Positions 8,146 through 15,702 of a stretch of DNA of 17,264 nt are shown in pieces. Position numbers and translations under genes: made by a program. The first letter of the stretch is position 1. The number at the start of each line of letters is the position of its first letter. The notes under the pieces are model-generated. The model had not been told where the DNA came from and made no database searches. It worked only from the letters and a program-made list of their open reading frames with translations. The DNA is from Chloroflexota bacterium (GTDB lineage Bacteria; Chloroflexota; Anaerolineae; Fen-1058), in contig JACRBO010000298.1 in the NCBI GenBank assembly GCA_016219235.1, forward strand, positions 1-17,264, given 5' to 3'.

Positions 8146-9747
8146 ATGCATAAACACCGGTGGCTCATATTCATCGGCATTGTCAGCCTGGCACTGGCGG
8201 CCTGCGGCGCGCCGCAGACGCCGGCCGTGCCTGCAACCGTACCGGCCAGCGCGCAACAACCTTCTATTGCAACAACTGCGCCATTTGCTACGCCATTGGC
8301 CTCGCCGACACAGGCGGCCAGAATGCAGTCTGCCACACCAGCGGCCACGCCGACGAACGCAACATCAGCAATGTCCACGGCAACCGTGCCCGCAACAAGT
8401 GCGCCGCCGCCAACAAACGGCGCTGATCGCGACACGCCGGTTTTGATCTTCCCTGCCGCCGACGGCCTGATGTCGGTCCTGGCCGACGGCACGGGCCAAC
8501 GGCTGCTCAGCCCGGTCCAGCCGGAAGCCGCGCGCACGCTGGCGGAGGCGTTGTCACCGGCCGGCGACTGGCTCGCCTTCGTTAGCGGTGATGACACCAT
8601 GCTGCCCGATCAAAAGGACAGCGGCCCGCTGACGCTGAATCTACTCGACGTCTCGACCGGCCAGATCAAACCGATCACGCCGCTATTCTCAGCCGAACTG
8701 GAGCAGGCGATCAGGTCCGCGACCGCCACCGGCGATCGCAACGACGCGATTGAAGCCGCCATTGCCGTCGTCGATAACTCCGACACGCGGCAGTGGTCGC
8801 CTGATGGCCGCTACCTGGCCTTCATCGCCGCCATCGACGGCCCGTCGTCGGATGTGTACAGTTACGATCGAGAAACGGGGCAGATCAATCGGCTGACCGA
8901 CGGACCGCATCAGGCCGCGCAGCTGTTCTGGTCGCCCGACAGCCAGTGGATCGTGCACGAAGAAGTGGCCTCATTTGGCACGGGCGCGGGCTGGGACGTC
9001 AGGGCGGTGTGGGCGGCTGCGCCCGACGGCAACACGACGCGCAAGGTGTACGACGCGGGCGCCAGCGGCGATGAAGTCTTCGTGGACTGGGTCACGCCGG
9101 ACACATTCCTGGTTTATTCATGGACGGCGGTGGGCTGGCAAAATGCGCGACTGGTCAACCTGATGACGGGCGAAGCGCAGCGCGTCGGCCCGGATTTTCC
9201 GGTGCTGAGTCTGGCCTATGATCCGGCGACACAGGCGCAGCTGTACGCTGGCGATGATTTCTTTATGCAACAACGGGGGTTACGCGGCGGCCTGTATCTG
9301 GCTGCACCGAACGCCAGCGGTCAACCGCCGCGCTTCATTGCCGACGGCGACTGGTACACTGTGCGCTGGCTGCCGCAGTCGCAGTTGTTTTTTGCCGCAG
9401 GCAAAGCGGGCGCGCTGAGTGTGACGCGCGACGGGGTGGTGACGCGCTACGACACTGAACAGGCCATACCAATCGAGTCGCCCGACGGCGCGTGGCTGCT
9501 GGCGTGGCGCAACGGTGACGTTATCAACTCGACCGGTCTGCGCCTCTATACGCCCGACGGCACACTCGCGCGCACCATCACGCAAGACACGGTCTTATTC
9601 GCGACATGGTCGCCCGACTCGACCGGCGCGTTTTACGTGTCGGCGGGCGCGCTGCGCTACGTGTCGATCCCGGACGGCGAGCCACAGGTAATCGTGGAGA
9701 AGTTGATCACCGCCGAACCGGCGGGCTATGTCTGGGTGCGACCATAA
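8146..9747 (+). CDS. Secreted lipoprotein with TolB/PD40-type beta-propeller
   Basis: The 533-residue product begins with a lipoprotein signal peptide (MHKHRWLIFIGIVSLALAAC, lipobox LAAC with Cys20). A Pro/Thr/Ala-rich linker (about 21-95) holds it off the membrane. The rest is a propeller of WD40-like/PD40 blades. SPAGDWLAFVSG (about 136), WSPDGRYLAFIAA (about 217), FWSPDSQWIVHEE (261), SPDGAWLLAW and ATWSPDSTGAFYV (486) are the recurring 'SPDg.wiaf' strands, with 'TGQI..lT' turns between them. TolB-type propellers usually bind proteins or peptidoglycan-associated partners; the ligand here is unknown. No Shine-Dalgarno is close to the start, which follows the DUF72 stop by six bases and may depend on translational coupling. 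The linker is of the same kind as in the minus-strand lipoproteins but lacks their two-Cys module. Confidence 0.88.
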   Translation: MHKHRWLIFIGIVSLALAACGAPQTPAVPATVPASAQQPSIATTAPFATPLASPTQAARMQSATPAATPTNATSAMSTATVPATSAPPPTNGADRDTPVLIFPAADGLMSVLADGTGQRLLSPVQPEAARTLAEALSPAGDWLAFVSGDDTMLPDQKDSGPLTLNLLDVSTGQIKPITPLFSAELEQAIRSATATGDRNDAIEAAIAVVDNSDTRQWSPDGRYLAFIAAIDGPSSDVYSYDRETGQINRLTDGPHQAAQLFWSPDSQWIVHEEVASFGTGAGWDVRAVWAAAPDGNTTRKVYDAGASGDEVFVDWVTPDTFLVYSWTAVGWQNARLVNLMTGEAQRVGPDFPVLSLAYDPATQAQLYAGDDFFMQQRGLRGGLYLAAPNASGQPPRFIADGDWYTVRWLPQSQLFFAAGKAGALSVTRDGVVTRYDTEQAIPIESPDGAWLLAWRNGDVINSTGLRLYTPDGTLARTITQDTVLFATWSPDSTGAFYVSAGALRYVSIPDGEPQVIVEKLITAEPAGYVWVRP

Positions 9748-9752
9748 ACACA

Positions 9753-9783
9753 GGCCTCGCAGATCACTAAGACCTGCGAGGCC
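9753..9783. terminator. Bidirectional hairpin between convergent genes
   Basis: GGCCTCGCAG (9753-9762) pairs perfectly over 10 bp with 9774-9783 across an 11-nt loop. It lies six bases after the propeller lipoprotein stop and 26 bases beyond the TPR gene end, so it can serve both converging transcripts. There is no long T tract on either side. The arm GACCTGCGAGG resembles the GACCTCGGAGG palindrome found after asd, so it may be a dispersed repeat used as terminator. Confidence 0.6.
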
Positions 9784-9809: not shown

Positions 9810-10298
9810 TCAATTCAGCCGCGCGATCAGCAGCTTGAGCGCTTCCTTTGCCACTCGATACCCCGGTTCGATATTGATCGCCGCGCGATAACAGCGCAGC
9901 GCTTCGCGCCACGGGCCGATCGTTTCGTAGACGCGCCCCAGGTTCAGCCACGGAAAATGCGGCGATTCATACCGCGGCGACTGCGTGGCCCGTTCCAGCC
10001 ACTCGATGGCCTCGCGCTGGCGGCCCTGCTCGACCAGGTAAGCGCCGATGTCGTTGTAAGGATTGCCAAACGCGGGATCGATCTCGATGGCCTTCAGGCA
10101 CTCCGTAATCGCGTCTTCGTAGCGGTTGAGAAACGAGTAGCACCAGCCCAGAAACGTGTGCGCTTCAGCCGTCGAATAGATTTCGATACTGGCCTGATAC
10201 AGCGCAATCGCGTCGGCCAATTCGCCGTTGAGTTGCTGCGAATATGCTTCGCGCCACAATTCCTCGGCGCGGGCGCGGGCAGAAACAAAATCATCCAT
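9810..10298 (-). CDS. Tetratricopeptide repeat protein
   Basis: The 162-residue cytoplasmic-looking product has no signal peptide and consists almost wholly of TPR units. Approximate repeats are 11-44 (AEELWREAYSQQLNGELADAI…), 45-78 (AEAHTFLGWCYSFLNRYEDAI…AIEIDPAF), 79-112 (GNPYNDIGAYLVEQGRQREAI…) and 115-148 (FPWLNLGRVYETIGPWREAL…AINIEPGY). TPRs form helical protein-binding surfaces; the partner is not evident. The ATG at 10298 is chosen because GAGGG lies seven bases upstream; an in-frame start 27 bases earlier precedes that site. It is the last gene of a minus-strand run that starts with the three lipoproteins, 64 bases after the nearest one, and may be coexpressed with them. Confidence 0.9.
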   Translation of the reverse strand: MDDFVSARARAEELWREAYSQQLNGELADAIALYQASIEIYSTAEAHTFLGWCYSFLNRYEDAITECLKAIEIDPAFGNPYNDIGAYLVEQGRQREAIEWLERATQSPRYESPHFPWLNLGRVYETIGPWREALRCYRAAINIEPGYRVAKEALKLLIARLN

Positions 10299-10362
10299 GC
10301 TGCATCCCTCAAACAAGCAGAGCAAACTCGATCACAATACACCCGTCATTGCCCTCACCGCA

Positions 10363-11514
10363 TCAGTTGCTCAAGAGTTGGAGCGCCTGGGACAACAGTT
10401 CGTGAGCGGTCGAGGCGGCGTATCTCAAATCAGAAATCATCCCCGACGTAACTGCACCCTCTTGTCGTCCGCACGTCTCATAAATCGGGCGCGCAATGTC
10501 TAGCATAGTGGAGATTGCTTTGAGATATTTGCCATATGCCAACTGGACATTACCAGATTTCGCGCCAACATCAAAAGTTGGTGCAATCCCAATTCGATCG
10601 TAGGTCGTCCGATATTCGTCACACGGAAACGACTTCACATCCATCGGGAACGGCCATGATGCGGGTGTCGCAGTTATATTCTTGACGGGACGCTTTCTGA
10701 GTTCACCCAGGACATCTGAATTATACATGACTTGCTGAACCGCGCTCAGCAGCGGCCCGTGTTGTGAGGTTTCGGAGGATGCATCAACCTCATAACGGAC
10801 AAATTCCCAGGCCCGCGCCAGTTGATTGGCTGCATCGCCAGCAGGCGGAAAGATGGTGTTCAACTGGTTTCTACCGATCGTGCCCGAGCCACTTTGACCG
10901 CACGTACGCAGCTTTTCACCCAGACTACTCAACTGATCGATCGCCCCGCGATACAAAGTATAGGCTTGTTGCACATTTGGCGGCTGGCCGGTCATGTCAT
11001 AAGGCGGCGCAGCGACAAGACTATTATAAGTTTGAATCATAGGTGGACATAGATCGGCGTGTCCATCCATAAGTTGATTGAGCTGCCTATTAAGCGCCTG
11101 GGCCGCATCCAAAGCCTGCTGAATTGATTTCTGTACAGTGGATGGTTGCGACGAGACGCCGCTGCCCGAACTCACTACCGGGGCTTTGGTAGCGGTCGGT
11201 TTAGGCGTAACGATCTTCGTGGGGGCAAGTTTCGGCGTATTGGTCGGTTGCGGGGTGGCCGTCGGCGCGGGCGTCGCGGTAGCGGTCGGCGGCACAGGCG
11301 TGGCCGTGGGCGGCACCGGTGTGCTGGTGGCCGTCGGTTCCAGCGTCGCCGTCGGCGGTACAGGCACGGTGGTATGTTCGAGCGTTACTGTCGGCAGAGT
11401 TGATGTTGGAGACAATGGCTCTGTCGAAACAACACCGGGCGCTGGAGAGCTGCAAGCCGACAGTGTAACCACAATGAGCAGGATTCCACATAGATGTCGC
11501 AATCGTGTCAACAT
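10363..11514 (-). CDS. Lipoprotein with Pro/Thr linker and two copies of the two-Cys helical module
   Basis: The family is not one I recognise by name. The 383-residue product has a signal peptide with lipobox LSAC (Cys21) and a long VPPTATPVPPTATATP-type linker (about 34-112). Two helix-rich modules follow. Module 1 (about 125-240) has Cys156 and Cys205, with Tyr163, PPYDM (170-174) and AYTLYRGAI (184-192). Module 2 (about 250-383) has Cys298 and Cys348, with Tyr305, PTFDV (312-316) and AYGKYLKAI (326-334). Each pair of cysteines probably forms a disulfide outside the membrane. AGGAG lies six bases upstream of the ATG. It is the third and last of three tandem relatives, 78 bases after its neighbour. 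Its linker DNA is about 93% identical to that of the first one. Role unknown. Confidence 0.88.
   Translation of the reverse strand: MLTRLRHLCGILLIVVTLSACSSPAPGVVSTEPLSPTSTLPTVTLEHTTVPVPPTATLEPTATSTPVPPTATPVPPTATATPAPTATPQPTNTPKLAPTKIVTPKPTATKAPVVSSGSGVSSQPSTVQKSIQQALDAAQALNRQLNQLMDGHADLCPPMIQTYNSLVAAPPYDMTGQPPNVQQAYTLYRGAIDQLSSLGEKLRTCGQSGSGTIGRNQLNTIFPPAGDAANQLARAWEFVRYEVDASSETSQHGPLLSAVQQVMYNSDVLGELRKRPVKNITATPASWPFPMDVKSFPCDEYRTTYDRIGIAPTFDVGAKSGNVQLAYGKYLKAISTMLDIARPIYETCGRQEGAVTSGMISDLRYAASTAHELLSQALQLLSN
11168..11358 (-). repeat. Pro/Thr linker repeat, copy shared with 13961-14151
   Basis: These 191 bases align without a gap to 13961-14151 with about 13 differences. The stretch 11293-11358 is identical to 14086-14151 (66 bases). 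Internally it is made of short GTCGCCGT/GGCGGCAC words that encode PTATxxPP repeats. Confidence 0.8.
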
Positions 11515-11592
11515 AGTTGCTCCTGATTGAAATCGGTGCTGCTGCTTTGAACTCCATCCTCAACACCAACCGGTCCGTCTGTGTGACCGTCT

Positions 11593-13113
11593 TTATTGTC
11601 CCAGCGCAGCCAGGGCCTGCGTCAACCAGCTGCCCGCCGTATTGACGGCCTGCCGGGCTTCGTTGAAGTCCAGCGAACCGATGTTGCCGCCGCCCGATAA
11701 ACAGATGTTGGCGATCTGCGTGACCTTGCTGCCCGCGATGAAATCGACCGCCTGCCGGTACTGGGCGTAAGCGCCCTGCTGACTGGCCGGTACGTCATAC
11801 GTCGGCGCATTGACGACCGCCCGATAGCTCTCCATAAACGCCACGCAACTCTCAGAGCCGCCGCCGTGATACAAGCGATCCATGGCCCCGCCGATGGCCT
11901 CGACCGCATTGCGCGTCCGCTGGATGGTGTCAGCCAGCGGCGCGGCGGCGGGCGCTTTGGTGGCGACGGGCTTGGGTGTAGCGCCCGGTACGAGTGTGGC
12001 CGGGGGTAAGTTCGTCGGCGTCGCCACGATTTCGATTTCGCCCGTGGGCAGCTTTATCTCCACGTTATCAAACGTGGTCAGCATGCCACCCTGGCTGCCG
12101 GTACCGGCTGCAAAAGCGATGGGGCCGCGTTTGAACTGGCTGTCTTTGATCGTCGCGACTTGCACATCGTTGATGTAGAACGCAAAGTCGGGGCCGTGCG
12201 CGATCAAGCGCAGCCGGTTGACCTCGTTGCGCGGTTTCAGCGCCGCACTGCGTTTGGCGGCCACCAACGGCTTAAATTCGTTGGCCGTGCCGGTCAGTAT
12301 GCTGAAGGTGCCGTTATTGAACACGTTGAAGAAGTAACTGCCGCTGGCGCCGGAGCGCGCTACGATGCTGTAAAAAGTGCCGCTGCCGCCGGTGGCCTGG
12401 CGCGCATCAACGGTCAGATCAAAATCCTCGAAGTCCACGTTCAGTGCAGACAGGGCCAGGGATTCCGGTGCGTCCACACTTAACCGCAGTTGCCCGCCGA
12501 TCACTTTGGAAGTTGAACCGGTCAGATTGTATTCGGCCCAATGCAGTTCATTATCGGCAAAGTTCTCTTTCACCAACTGCGCGCCGGGCTGTCCCCGGGT
12601 AGCGCTGATCTGGAATTCGCCGGTCAGCTTCTTGCCGGCCAGGCGCACCGTAATCACGTACCGCCCAGGAATCAGCAGGCGCGCATCTTCGAGCAGCGGC
12701 CAGATATAGGTACCGGCTTCACCCGCCGTCCAGTCTTCAGTCTTATCAAAGAGCGAAGATTCGCCGCGCTTCAACTCGACTTCCAGGCTCATGCTTGCCG
12801 GGATGCCGACGTAGTCAAATGCGGCATACATCGCCGTCGCGCCAGCCTCAAAGATAGTGCCGCCTGTCTTGGCATCTTGCATGGTTTCGTCAGGGGCGAA
12901 CATCAGATGTGAAATAGCCGGATCGGGTACGGGCGTACTGGTCGCTGTCGGCTCCGGCGTCGCCGTGGGCGGTACGGGTGTAGCCGTCGGCTCCATCGTC
13001 GCCGTCGGCGGAATCAGCGTCGGCTCGGGCGCGGATGTGGCGGTGGCACAGGCCGCCGCGAATAGACTCAGCATTGAACCCACGGTTATTAGCTTGCCCA
13101 ACGTTTTCAACAT
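11593..13113 (-). CDS. Mosaic lipoprotein: Ig-like domain, LamG/DUF1080-like domain and one two-Cys helical module
   Basis: The 506-residue product has a lipoprotein signal ending AAAC (Cys22) and a short EPTATPVPPTATPEPTATST linker (about 29-64). A beta-sandwich Ig-like region follows (about 66-172, from ISHLMFAPDE to GEFQIS). Next is a jelly-roll of the concanavalin/LamG or DUF1080 type (about 180-353). The latter shows ENFADNELHW, GGQLRLSVDAPE, FDLTVDARQ, NRLRLIAHGPDFAFYINDVQ and FDNVEI. A second linker (364-392) leads to one helical module (about 395-506) with Cys423 and Cys471, PTYDV (437-441) and AYAQYRQAV (449-457). The LamG-like fold often binds carbohydrate, but no catalytic residues can be pointed out. 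GGAGG lies seven bases before the ATG. It sits between two related genes, with 78-base gaps on both sides. Confidence 0.87.
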   Translation of the reverse strand: MLKTLGKLITVGSMLSLFAAACATATSAPEPTLIPPTATMEPTATPVPPTATPEPTATSTPVPDPAISHLMFAPDETMQDAKTGGTIFEAGATAMYAAFDYVGIPASMSLEVELKRGESSLFDKTEDWTAGEAGTYIWPLLEDARLLIPGRYVITVRLAGKKLTGEFQISATRGQPGAQLVKENFADNELHWAEYNLTGSTSKVIGGQLRLSVDAPESLALSALNVDFEDFDLTVDARQATGGSGTFYSIVARSGASGSYFFNVFNNGTFSILTGTANEFKPLVAAKRSAALKPRNEVNRLRLIAHGPDFAFYINDVQVATIKDSQFKRGPIAFAAGTGSQGGMLTTFDNVEIKLPTGEIEIVATPTNLPPATLVPGATPKPVATKAPAAAPLADTIQRTRNAVEAIGGAMDRLYHGGGSESCVAFMESYRAVVNAPTYDVPASQQGAYAQYRQAVDFIAGSKVTQIANICLSGGGNIGSLDFNEARQAVNTAGSWLTQALAALGQ

Positions 13114-13132
13114 TCTCTGCCTCCATAGCAGT

Positions 13133-13152
13133 GACCCGGCGGGTCGTAGAAT
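13133..13152. promoter_or_regulatory. 20-nt leader element shared with the neighbouring paralogue
   Basis: GACCCGGCGGGTCGTAGAAT differs at two positions from 14312-14331. It begins 19 bases upstream of the middle lipoprotein's start codon. GACCC and GGGTC can form a small hairpin. It is either an operator/leader element or a remnant of gene duplication. Confidence 0.4.
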
Positions 13153-13180
13153 AATCGGCCTTGCATCAGAGCTACGTCAA
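13151..13180 (-). promoter_or_regulatory. Possible promoter of the middle lipoprotein gene
   Basis: On the minus strand TTGACG (13175-13180) is followed after 18 bases by GATTAT (13151-13156), matching -35 and -10 consensus at 5/6 and 4/6. A start point near 13144 would give a short leader with the GGAGG site. Chance matches of this strength are common. Confidence 0.3.
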
Positions 13181-13191
13181 GACGCTTGTAA

Positions 13192-14292
13192 TCACTGTCC
13201 TAACAAGTCCTGGGCGCTTTTGAGTGAATCGATGATATTCTTTAGATCGGTCCGGATATATGCCATCGGGTTCGTGTTCAACTCATAAGCCTGGTTAGCA
13301 CACATACCGGCCACGCCGCCGACCTTCAAGCTATACGTCTCAAGTGCTTGCCGGTAGGTCTGGTAGGCAGCCACCACGTTCGGAGGCTGGCCGGTGACAT
13401 CGATTTCTTGCGGCTGAATTGTGGCGTGATAGCTCCGCAGCTCGGCACAGTCAGGATCGATTCCGCGTAGCGGCGATACCCAGTGGCCGCCTAAATGTTT
13501 GTCAAATACGCCCGCGATTCCTTCCAGAGAAGCCCGTAACTGGACAATAGCGGCCGGTACGGGCGATAAAGTGGTCAGGATAGCCGCGTTTTCGAAACGT
13601 TTCACCGCTTGCCCTAGTAAGCCGAGCGACTTGTCGATAATTAGGCGAGTTTCTCCCCACTCCAACCCGCCAATTGGACCGCCGCCTTTGCCGCAGTCTA
13701 GAAAGGTCGCCGAGCGCAGATTGAGCGTATTGATCGCGCTTCGATACAAATCGTAGGCTTGCTGCACTGACGCCGGCTCACCCGACACGTCATAGACCGG
13801 GGCCTGGCTCACGCTTTGATATTTCGCCAACAGCGGCGCGCATAATTCCACCCCGCCGGTTTTCATTTGATCCAGCAGGCTGAGCATGACCTGCACGGTA
13901 TCAAACGTCTGCTTGACCGATTTCTGCACCGAGGACGGCTGCGCTGAAACACCGCCCCCCGAACTGACTGCCGGAGCCTTGGTCAAGGTCGGCTTAGGCG
14001 TAACGATCTTCGTGGGGGCAGGTTTCGGCGTATTGGTCGGCTGCGGGGTAGCCGTCGACGCGGGCGTCGCGGTAGCGGTCGGCGTCACAGGCGTGGCCGT
14101 GGGCGGCACCGGTGTGCTGGTGGCCGTCGGTTCCAGCGTCGCCGTCGGCGGAACCGCAGTGGCTGTTGGCTCAATCGTCGCCGTCGGTGGTACGGGCGTC
14201 GGCTCGGGTGCAGGGGCCGCGGCGGTGCAAGCCGCTGCCAACAGGCTCACGATCAACCCCAATATTATCAACCTACCTGACAGTCTTGACAT
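13192..14292 (-). CDS. Lipoprotein with Pro/Thr linker and two copies of the two-Cys helical module
   Basis: First of the tandem trio in transcription order, 366 residues; the family is not one I know by name. It has a signal peptide ending LLAAAC and a long PTAT-type linker to about residue 105. The two modules, numbered from the upstream Met at 14295, are as follows. Module 1 has Cys152 and Cys201, with Tyr159, PVYDV (166-170) and AYDLYRSAI (180-188). Module 2 has Cys283 and Cys332, with Tyr289, EIDVTGQPPN (297-306) and AYQTYRQAL (310-318). Two adjacent ATG codons exist. I take the second (14292) because AGGAG is then seven bases away, and because its distance to the shared leader element then equals that of the next gene (19 bases). 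The C-terminal part is helix-rich with no transmembrane segment. Function unknown. Confidence 0.87.
   Translation of the reverse strand: MSRLSGRLIILGLIVSLLAAACTAAAPAPEPTPVPPTATIEPTATAVPPTATLEPTATSTPVPPTATPVTPTATATPASTATPQPTNTPKPAPTKIVTPKPTLTKAPAVSSGGGVSAQPSSVQKSVKQTFDTVQVMLSLLDQMKTGGVELCAPLLAKYQSVSQAPVYDVSGEPASVQQAYDLYRSAINTLNLRSATFLDCGKGGGPIGGLEWGETRLIIDKSLGLLGQAVKRFENAAILTTLSPVPAAIVQLRASLEGIAGVFDKHLGGHWVSPLRGIDPDCAELRSYHATIQPQEIDVTGQPPNVVAAYQTYRQALETYSLKVGGVAGMCANQAYELNTNPMAYIRTDLKNIIDSLKSAQDLLGQ
13961..14151 (-). repeat. Pro/Thr linker repeat, copy shared with 11168-11358
   Basis: Ungapped partner of the linker in the third lipoprotein, about 93% identical. Identity is highest in the first-translated half and falls off quickly on both sides, where only protein-level similarity remains. 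Confidence 0.8.
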
Positions 14293-14311
14293 CATCTATC
14301 TCCTAGAAAAC

Positions 14312-14331
14312 GACCCGGTGGGGCGTAGAAT
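14312..14331. promoter_or_regulatory. 20-nt leader element, second copy
   Basis: GACCCGGTGGGGCGTAGAAT starts 19 bases from the ATG at 14292, the same distance as the copy in front of the middle lipoprotein gene. No such element is found before the third lipoprotein gene. Confidence 0.4.
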
Positions 14332-14340
14332 CAGACACGC

Positions 14341-14387
14341 AAAACGCGGGGACATCTCGCCCTAATCGGTATCGAGATGCCCCCGCG
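14341..14387 (-). terminator. Rho-independent terminator of lysC-asd
   Basis: Arms 14345-14359 and 14373-14387 pair over 15 positions with a single A/C mismatch, and the loop is 13 nt. In the minus direction the hairpin is GC-rich at its base (CGCGGGG) and is followed by TTTTG (14340-14344). It lies 164 bases beyond the asd stop and before the lipoprotein leader, so it separates the two minus-strand units. Confidence 0.75.
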
Positions 14388-14454
14388 CCTCAGTCCGGGA
14401 AACATTATGCGCCTGAGCCGGATGCCTGTCAATACGTAGAAATACTTATTGAAT

Positions 14455-14575
14455 CAGCCCCTGCGCCACTGTCGTGGAAAGACCTCGGAGGTTTTCCTCG
14501 ATTGTCTGATCATGCCTGCCAGTCGATCAAAACCTCCGAGGTCTTGTGCGCTTACTTCACCAGCCCCTGCGCCAC
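14455..14575. repeat. Palindromic element flanked by a duplicated asd 3' end
   Basis: The core is a perfect 17-bp inverted repeat, AAGACCTCGGAGGTTTT (14479-14495) with 14529-14545, and a 33-nt spacer. The 15-bp direct repeat CAGCCCCTGCGCCAC flanks it at 14455-14469 and 14561-14575. The 14561-14575 copy is inside asd (encoding VAQGL before VK-stop). On the minus strand the outer copy reads VAQGLIQ-stop, so it looks like an old or duplicated end of asd. Confidence 0.75.
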
Positions 14576-15601
14576 CATCAGTTCCGCATTCAGCAGCGAG
14601 CCGCCCGCCGCGCCGCGAATGGTGTTGTGCGACAGCACTACAAACTTCACATGGAACAGCGGGTCTTCGCGCACGCGGCCGACCACGGTGGTCATGCCGT
14701 TGCCCGCGTTGCGATCGCGCCGCGGCTGCGGCCGATCGGCCTCCGGGCGCACCTCGATGACGCACTGCGGAGCCGACGGGAGCGATTGAACGATCGGGGG
14801 CGCGGTGAAGTCCGCCATCGCCTGCGCGGCCTCTTCCGGTCCGATGGGTCGATCAAACTCGATCGAGACGCAGACGGTATGCCCGTCGATCACGGCCACG
14901 CGATTGGTGTGTGCCGAAATTTTGATCGGCGCATCGATCACGCCCGATTGATCCAGCCGCCCCAACATCTTAAGCGGCTCCGTTTCGACTTTGGCTTCCT
15001 CACCGCCGATGTAGGGCACGACATTATCAATCGCGTCGAGCGAGGCCACGCCCGGATAGCCTGCGCCCGAGAGCGCCTGCATCGACACGACGAAGGCTTT
15101 TCGCAAGCCAAAGGCATCCAGCAGCGGGCGAAACGCGATCGTGAAACCCGTGGACGTACAGTTGGGGTTCGTGGCGATGAAGCCGCTCCAGCCGCGCTGT
15201 TGCTGCTGCACTTTGATCAACGCGGTGTGATCGGGATTGACTTCAGGGATCAGCAGCGGCACATCCGCGTCCATGCGATACGAAGATGCATTTGAACACA
15301 CGCCGTGCCCCGCCCGGGCAAACGCCGGTTCGATGGTCTTCGCCTGATCGGCTGGCAACGCGGAGAAAGCGATGGCCGCCTCGAAGCCGGGTTCGGTAGG
15401 CACGACTTTCATGTCGCGCGCGTACGCGGGCATGGGCGCATCCAGTACCCAGCGACAGGCATCGCCATAGGTTTGCCCCACCGAACGATCGGAGCCGGTG
15501 AGCGCGCTCACTTCAAACCACGGGTGATTATCCAGCAACTGCACGAAGCGTTGACCCACTGCGCCGGTCGCGCCGAGCACAGCAACTTTGATCTTGGACA
15601 T
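14552..15601 (-). CDS. asd: Aspartate-semialdehyde dehydrogenase
   Basis: Asd reduces aspartyl phosphate to aspartate semialdehyde with NADPH, the branch-point precursor for lysine/DAP, threonine and methionine. The 349-residue product has the nucleotide motif VLGATGAVGQRFV (8-20), GVCSNASSYR (100-109), the catalytic cysteine in NPNCTSTGF (145-153, Cys148), QALSGAGYPG (175-184), the catalytic His region SAHTNRVAVIDGH (229-241, His231) and RPQPRRDRNAGNGM (290-303). That last motif and the order of blocks mark the archaeal/eukaryotic-like subtype. The ATG at 15601 has AGGAG six bases upstream; the in-frame extension to 15667 is translated spacer repeat. It lies 86 bases after lysC, in the same direction and pathway. 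Its final codons are duplicated beyond the stop, around a palindrome. Confidence 0.95.
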   Translation of the reverse strand: MSKIKVAVLGATGAVGQRFVQLLDNHPWFEVSALTGSDRSVGQTYGDACRWVLDAPMPAYARDMKVVPTEPGFEAAIAFSALPADQAKTIEPAFARAGHGVCSNASSYRMDADVPLLIPEVNPDHTALIKVQQQQRGWSGFIATNPNCTSTGFTIAFRPLLDAFGLRKAFVVSMQALSGAGYPGVASLDAIDNVVPYIGGEEAKVETEPLKMLGRLDQSGVIDAPIKISAHTNRVAVIDGHTVCVSIEFDRPIGPEEAAQAMADFTAPPIVQSLPSAPQCVIEVRPEADRPQPRRDRNAGNGMTTVVGRVREDPLFHVKFVVLSHNTIRGAAGGSLLNAELMVAQGLVK

Positions 15602-15612
15602 GATATTCTCCT

Positions 15613-15702
15613 GATGAATGCACAACGCGTACGCGCAATGCACAATGCTCAATTGTGAACTGTGCATTGCGCATTGTGCATTATGAACTATGCATTATGA
15701 AT
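15613..15702. repeat. Heptad inverted repeat between lysC and asd
   Basis: Six heptads run in register at 15661-15702 (TGTGCAT, TGCGCAT, TGTGCAT, TATGAAC, TATGCAT, TATGAAT). The left arm GCGCAATGCACA (15633-15644) pairs perfectly with 15661-15672. The lysC stop and its last two codons lie in the heptads. Confidence 0.8.

Follow-up and report, generated by a model that had tools for sequence, protein, structure and literature searches.

A two-cysteine helical module at the C terminus of a family of predicted Chloroflexota lipoproteins

Analysis of a 17,264-nucleotide (nt) contig of a Chloroflexota bacterium (JACRBO010000298.1, assembly GCA_016219235.1; this whole stretch is referred to as the window) revealed three tandem genes for predicted lipoproteins, designated A, B and C, which carry five copies (2+1+2) of a single helical module with two conserved cysteines. 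The module represents a real and fairly wide domain family, built on a common fold and nameless in the libraries searched, and this family is far larger than the window alone reveals. The arrangement of the genes and modules had been proposed in a preliminary description made from the sequence alone, and one regular expression does match five times in A, B and C. Features of the three genes are as follows (window coordinates, all on the minus strand).

13192..14295, minus: lipoprotein A (367 amino acids, aa), comprising a signal peptide (Cys23), a Pro/Thr-rich spacer and two modules
13588..13938, minus: module A1 (residues 120-236), Cys152-Cys201; pattern, profile 46.6 bits, AlphaFold2 model
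13195..13566, minus: module A2 (residues 244-367), Cys283-Cys332; pattern, profile 18.8 bits, AlphaFold2 model
11593..13113, minus: lipoprotein B (506 aa), comprising a signal peptide (Cys22), a Pro/Thr-rich spacer, a jelly-roll region and a single module at the C terminus
12052..12507, minus: jelly-roll domain within B that resembles 3keto-disac_hyd (PF06439 match), residues 203-354
11596..11943, minus: module B (residues 391-506), Cys423-Cys471; profile 77.4 bits, predicted four-helix bundle
10363..11514, minus: lipoprotein C (383 aa), comprising a signal peptide (Cys21), a Pro/Thr-rich spacer and two modules
10795..11145, minus: module C1 (residues 124-240), Cys156-Cys205; pattern, profile 28.8 bits
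10366..10758, minus: module C2 (residues 253-383), Cys298-Cys348; pattern, profile 37.1 bits

Architecture of the three lipoproteins

Each of the three proteins begins with a hydrophobic signal closing on a lipobox-like Cys. The Pro/Thr-rich spacer that comes next measures 94 residues in A, 41 in B and 97 in C, with a Pro plus Thr content of 0.52, 0.59 and 0.51, respectively. On the basis of the signal peptide and lipobox Cys, A, B and C are predicted bacterial lipoproteins. Position -3 of the lipobox is Ala in A and B; Leu is more canonical than Ala at this position of the consensus. Outside the modules, the proteins have no cysteine beyond that of the lipobox, save for Cys9 within the signal peptide of C.

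The order of motifs ascribed to the module, Cys-x5,6-Tyr, Pro-x2,3-Asp-[VM], AYxxYxxA[ILV] and a second Cys, was found in all five copies, and the Cys-Cys spacings (49 and 49 in A, 48 in B, 49 and 50 in C) are the same five values that had been reported. Counting by hand placed a [YF]D pair at +16/+17 from the first Cys in four of the five copies, as described; in A2 the pair is ID and lies one residue earlier. The claim that A, B and C form an unnamed lipoprotein family stands for the module, on which no Pfam or NCBIfam match exceeded the cut-off in any of the three proteins, but does not hold for B as a whole, since the middle of this protein carries a PF06439-like jelly-roll (39 bits, Pfam cut-off 26.8).

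The module as a sequence family

To assess the relatedness of the five copies, a profile was built from 71 modules of outside proteins (P0005-P0075), with no window sequences included. This profile matched every copy (B 77.4, A1 46.6, C2 37.1, C1 28.8 and A2, the weakest, 18.8 bits), the best score among 1,500 shuffled stretches being 7.6 bits; the outside proteins had been found through a chain of searches starting from the window modules, and the profile is therefore independent in letters, not in discovery. These results indicate that the copies are related beyond chance, as the preliminary description had held.

Both cysteines are present in 70 of the 71 outside modules (P0010 lacks the first), with a spacing of 48 residues in 64 cases and 50 in six. 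In a set of 39 diverse modules, Cys38 and Tyr67 (numbering of the module B model) are invariant and Cys86 is found in 38; in the exception, L111, a Cys sits a few residues downstream. The most conserved positions of the module are the cysteines plus several Tyr, Pro, Ala and Leu residues. A bias of conservation towards one end of the bundle, which might mark an apical binding face, was looked for and not found.

Placement at the C terminus is a constant feature of the family: in every one of the 75 proteins of the P series, no more than 0-5 residues follow the module. A lipobox-like Cys was present in all 62 proteins judged to be N-terminally complete, the remaining 13 of the 75 having been set aside. 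A narrower lipobox pattern was matched by 56 of 66 proteins, and the 10 misses comprise four N-terminally cut proteins and six that pass the wider pattern. The Pro plus Thr content of the spacer has a median of 0.49 (range 0.24-0.57, 56 proteins).

Predicted structure

AlphaFold2 modelled module B confidently as a four-helix bundle (pLDDT 93), and both halves of A showed the same order of helices at lower confidence (model pTM 0.51), in agreement with the helical fold proposed for the module. In the module B model, Cys38 opens helix 2 and Cys86 closes helix 3, so that the two residues would lie at the same end of an up-down bundle. The disulfide-forming enzyme VKOR was identified in five of eight genomes with family members, which makes extracytoplasmic disulfides plausible, although G010, G370 and G299 had no match.

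Distribution and subtypes

Protein searches yielded 4, 7 and 64 proteins, one of the four being that of the window, which gives a family of 74 proteins besides the window's own. The 12 members that carry an organism name come from Anaerolineae, Anaerolineaceae, Ardenticatenaceae, Promineifilaceae, Leptofilum and Chloroflexi, with one entry from a hydrothermal vent metagenome. A profile of the five window modules matched three of seven hand-picked relatives at E 0.1 (G001, G002 and G005, the last at 41 bits), three of five genomes of the order and 20 of 396 genomes of the class. A profile of 39 members, which omits five of the 44 collected modules, found 26 of 392 class genomes, a count that includes an HlyD coiled-coil in G244 and a frame of just 62 residues in G229. 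The HlyD protein L163 was rejected as a member, being a coiled-coil false positive.

Two phylum-wide draws each gave two of 400 genomes, the same two both times, and a further draw from the same phylum found the family in none of 191 genomes. No member was detected in 189 genomes of an outside control, the phylum of G747 (labelled Acidobacteria), or in six mixed genomes that included the same two control metagenome-assembled genomes (MAGs), both searches being run without a positive control. Absence in the large draws is soft, because scoring was limited to at most 11 to 24 candidates in each genome. The phylum genomes drawn by MAG L035, labelled Bacteroidetes bacterium, overlap those drawn by the Thermoflexales MAG, and its label is probably wrong.

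No relatives of A were found among plasmid and phage records, nor in viral contigs scanned for short patterns with the A profile. Such scans miss relatives: a short-pattern scan of genome contigs found none, and a profile search of the same collection recovered the family.

The members were sorted by eye into four subtypes. Type 1 comprises the tandem modules of Thermoflexales, as in the window, and type 2 lipoproteins bearing a PFQQWGxAR-like motif. In type 3 the C-terminal module mostly follows a CBM_4_9-like region and, in single cases, SH3_3, CarboxypepD_reg or fasciclin, while type 4 is a YYISNPND-type group. Partner domains exceeding the cut-off were found in L118 (CBM_4_9, SH3_3 and CarboxypepD_reg), P0067 (CBM_4_9), P0065 (SH3_3 and CarboxypepD_reg) and L117 (fasciclin), and in these searches too no family passed its cut-off on the module itself; CBM_4_9 is often below the cut-off in type 3 and was precomputed for just 4 of 64 proteins. 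Inspection by eye showed that type 2 members of two genomes (L126:2349-3320 and L128:8477-9292) share prolyl-tRNA-synthetase-like and signal-peptidase-like genes as neighbours. Type 3 members of two genomes are located near TatC/TatA-like genes, likewise recognised by eye, one adjacent (L132:8170-9477) and one two genes away (L134:8799-9932).

The array locus and its relatives

Within the window the order is lysC-asd, then A-B-C, then a gene for a TPR protein. The window Asd is 92% identical to its counterpart in the MAG Thermoflexales bacterium BIN20 and 85% identical to the one in BIN19, which marks the window as coming from a relative of these Chloroflexota. The elements flanking the array are listed below.

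14552..15667, minus: asd; near-end flank of the array, conserved in G001, G002 and G010
14296..14432, minus: promoter-like site with a strong leader hairpin, 5' of the A gene; common to lipoprotein genes of two relatives
9810..10325, minus: TPR protein gene; far-end flank of the array, conserved in G002 and G010

The lysC-asd pair lies beside such lipoprotein genes on contigs of G001, G002 and G010, and the array itself varies, although contig breaks within repeats limit the reading of its true order in these relatives. In G010, A and B follow asd, and a second contig begins inside a B copy (97% like the first) beside the TPR gene. One contig of G002 carries B, A and the start of a third gene; another carries the end of a module-less B-like gene, a two-module gene and the TPR gene. 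The module-less frame (L099:5610-6320) is a B-like jelly-roll frame that ends without the helical module and adjoins the two-module gene. PF06439 scored 25.8 bits in B of G002, just below the cut-off, and B of G010 gave no Pfam match at E 0.01.

In a tree of the modules, the first modules of A and C cluster with the first modules of the relatives (98/99) and B groups with the two G010 copies (99/98). Module A2 clusters solely with its two database counterparts, and C2 lies on a long, unplaced branch.

The promoter-like site upstream of A (TTGACA-17-CATAAT) is followed by a predicted leader hairpin (-53.7 kcal/mol, z -5.1) with the stem GCGGGGGCATCTC / GAGATGTCCCCGC plus a U run. The same leader, with other loops, precedes the A and B lipoprotein genes in G001 and A in G010; its exact pattern occurs twice in the whole genome of G001, once in G010 and not in G002, only at those lipoprotein sites. 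No Rfam match was found in the window. A 26-nt inverted repeat (88%) at 14479-14545, between asd and A, is a candidate terminator or small mobile element. At the other end, a 13-pair terminator-like stem (9753-9783, minus strand) separates the TPR gene from a gene for a beta-propeller-like lipoprotein (8146-9747).

Mosaic divergence

Comparison of the window with G010 revealed very unequal divergence. The flanking genes (Asd, LysC, TPR, CoaBC, DUF72 and PanC) are 79-93% identical with dS of 0.51-0.67. Module B shares 94.1% identity (dN 0.033, dS 0.93, dN/dS ~0.035), whereas residues 64-355 of B, including the jelly-roll, share 28.9% (dN 0.89, dS saturated). The ratio for module B lies below those of Asd (~0.10) and LysC (~0.07), and at least this module is under strong purifying selection. 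The modules of A match those of the G010 A gene, which may not be an ortholog, at 39.8% and 27.8% identity, and A-type modules of the relatives in general are 19-47% identical to those of A.

Two repeats connect the genes of the window. A direct repeat of 300 nt (11074-11373 and 13867-14166, 82% identical) covers spacer and first-module start of C and A, and a second of 227 nt at 70% joins B to A in their upstream and signal regions. Between A and C the spacers are 80% identical and the modules 38% and 22%. Identity is thus mosaic across B, A and C, and parts of these genes are therefore subject to recombination or diversification.

Possible functions of the module

Chloroflexota are considered monoderm with layered envelopes, and the tomograms of two species look diderm; the passages of PMC13319060 that deal with this envelope present it as debated and unusual. 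A stalk crossing a layered envelope would place its head outside. The module is probably a binding domain. We judge the chances to be about even that the tandem genes form a variable array encoding stalked, predicted lipid-anchored display proteins whose heads dock or adhere to a partner in the envelope or matrix. Each protein would be exported and then lipidated at the lipobox Cys, the Pro/Thr-rich spacer, possibly glycosylated, would hold the head off the membrane, and the chain would end in one or two four-helix bundles held together by a disulfide. The head would be exposed at the surface and dock to protein or glycan. Of these elements, the family itself, the export signal, the spacer, the fold of module B, the position at the C terminus, the Cys pair and the changing array are seen directly in sequence or model, and lipidation, exposure, disulfide and docking are inferred. 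In B and the CBM_4_9 relatives it would grip a fixed envelope or matrix partner, and the adjoining jelly-roll would read changing glycans, the role being adhesion or envelope-matrix attachment, not catalysis. A broader version of this idea, in which Anaerolineae use the module as their own universal docking head, a disulfide-locked bundle that binds one conserved polymer of the envelope or sheath and carries interchangeable glycan-recognising domains, with the array beside asd serving as a cassette-swapping display locus driven by its own leader hairpin, seems to us unlikely.

Several other explanations have to be weighed. The module could simply cap the chain stably or serve as a structural spacer, binding nothing specific and being conserved for folding alone. 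This would suit the chemistry of the most conserved positions (cysteines, Tyr, Pro, Ala and Leu), the absence of a bias to one end and the low identity of the relatives' A-type modules, but it fits poorly with the tighter constraint on module B than on Asd and LysC, and with the recurrence of two-module heads and of pairing with diverse domains; we regard it as improbable. Phage or grazer pressure might instead drive diversification of the surface proteins, the heads being mere exposed targets, an idea that overlaps the others. Gene order and number between asd and the TPR gene do vary among relatives, and the 300-nt stretch shared by A and C is far more alike than their modules. However, most type 2 and type 3 members examined are single genes amid unrelated neighbours, and module B is conserved; we consider pressure of this kind an unlikely explanation. 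A receptor for a small ligand, comparable to the four-helix sensors Tar, Tsr, PcaY_PP and LytS but borne by a lipoprotein and not by a membrane receptor, is rather unlikely; the points of likeness and difference are given in the last section.

Among the Chloroflexota are filamentous bacteria that abound in sludge, soils and hot springs. Dozens of predicted lipoproteins of the phylum have this C-terminal head in common, which offers a handle on their surface make-up and on how they stick, and the 74 database proteins, of which the few source-named ones are mostly labelled hypothetical, could be annotated as one family.

Comparison with known families and folds

Profile searches of the module against Pfam and the PDB, which the preliminary description had suggested, gave no confident match. 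Judged by E values, not by curated cut-offs, the best matches of the 39 diverse members were E 0.0081 in Pfam (MIT, three members) and E 0.0014 in NCBIfam (one member), with no common theme. SCO1, DUF4129, MIT and YopE were rejected as Pfam leads, since their matches to the module were weak and inconsistent. Two profiles searched against PDB sequences gave chance-level matches (best E 0.1 and 0.083). Cytochrome c' (1jaf) was likewise set aside: its haem attachment motif is CxxCH, none of the module cysteines in the five copies belongs to such a motif, and the Foldseek E value was 0.34.

Two helical proteins of Bacteroides, 3rh3 (DUF3829-like by title) and 3iee (BF3319), differ from the window-protein model by a root-mean-square deviation of >6, a comparison that rests on the low-confidence domain arrangement of the A model (pTM 0.51); DUF3829 was absent from the Pfam matches of the window proteins and the 39 members. 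No sequence relation was seen to the Borrelia surface lipoproteins OspC and Vsp, whose arrangement is widespread among helical bundles. The domains adjoining the module, CBM_4_9 (PF02018) in type 3 members and the 3keto-disac_hyd/LamG-type jelly-roll (PF06439) in B, are distinct from it, the module being all-helical, unlike its neighbours.

Among the best fold matches are the sensor domains of Tar/Tsr, PcaY_PP and LytSN, which are extracytoplasmic four-helix bundles of ~120 residues, as the module is predicted to be. Of the Pfam families TarH, 4HB_MCP and HBM, HBM alone appeared among the matches of the 39 members, in one member at E 0.099. In contrast to these sensors, the module shows no sequence match to them above chance, is followed by neither a membrane segment nor a signalling domain, and is marked by its conserved Cys pair.
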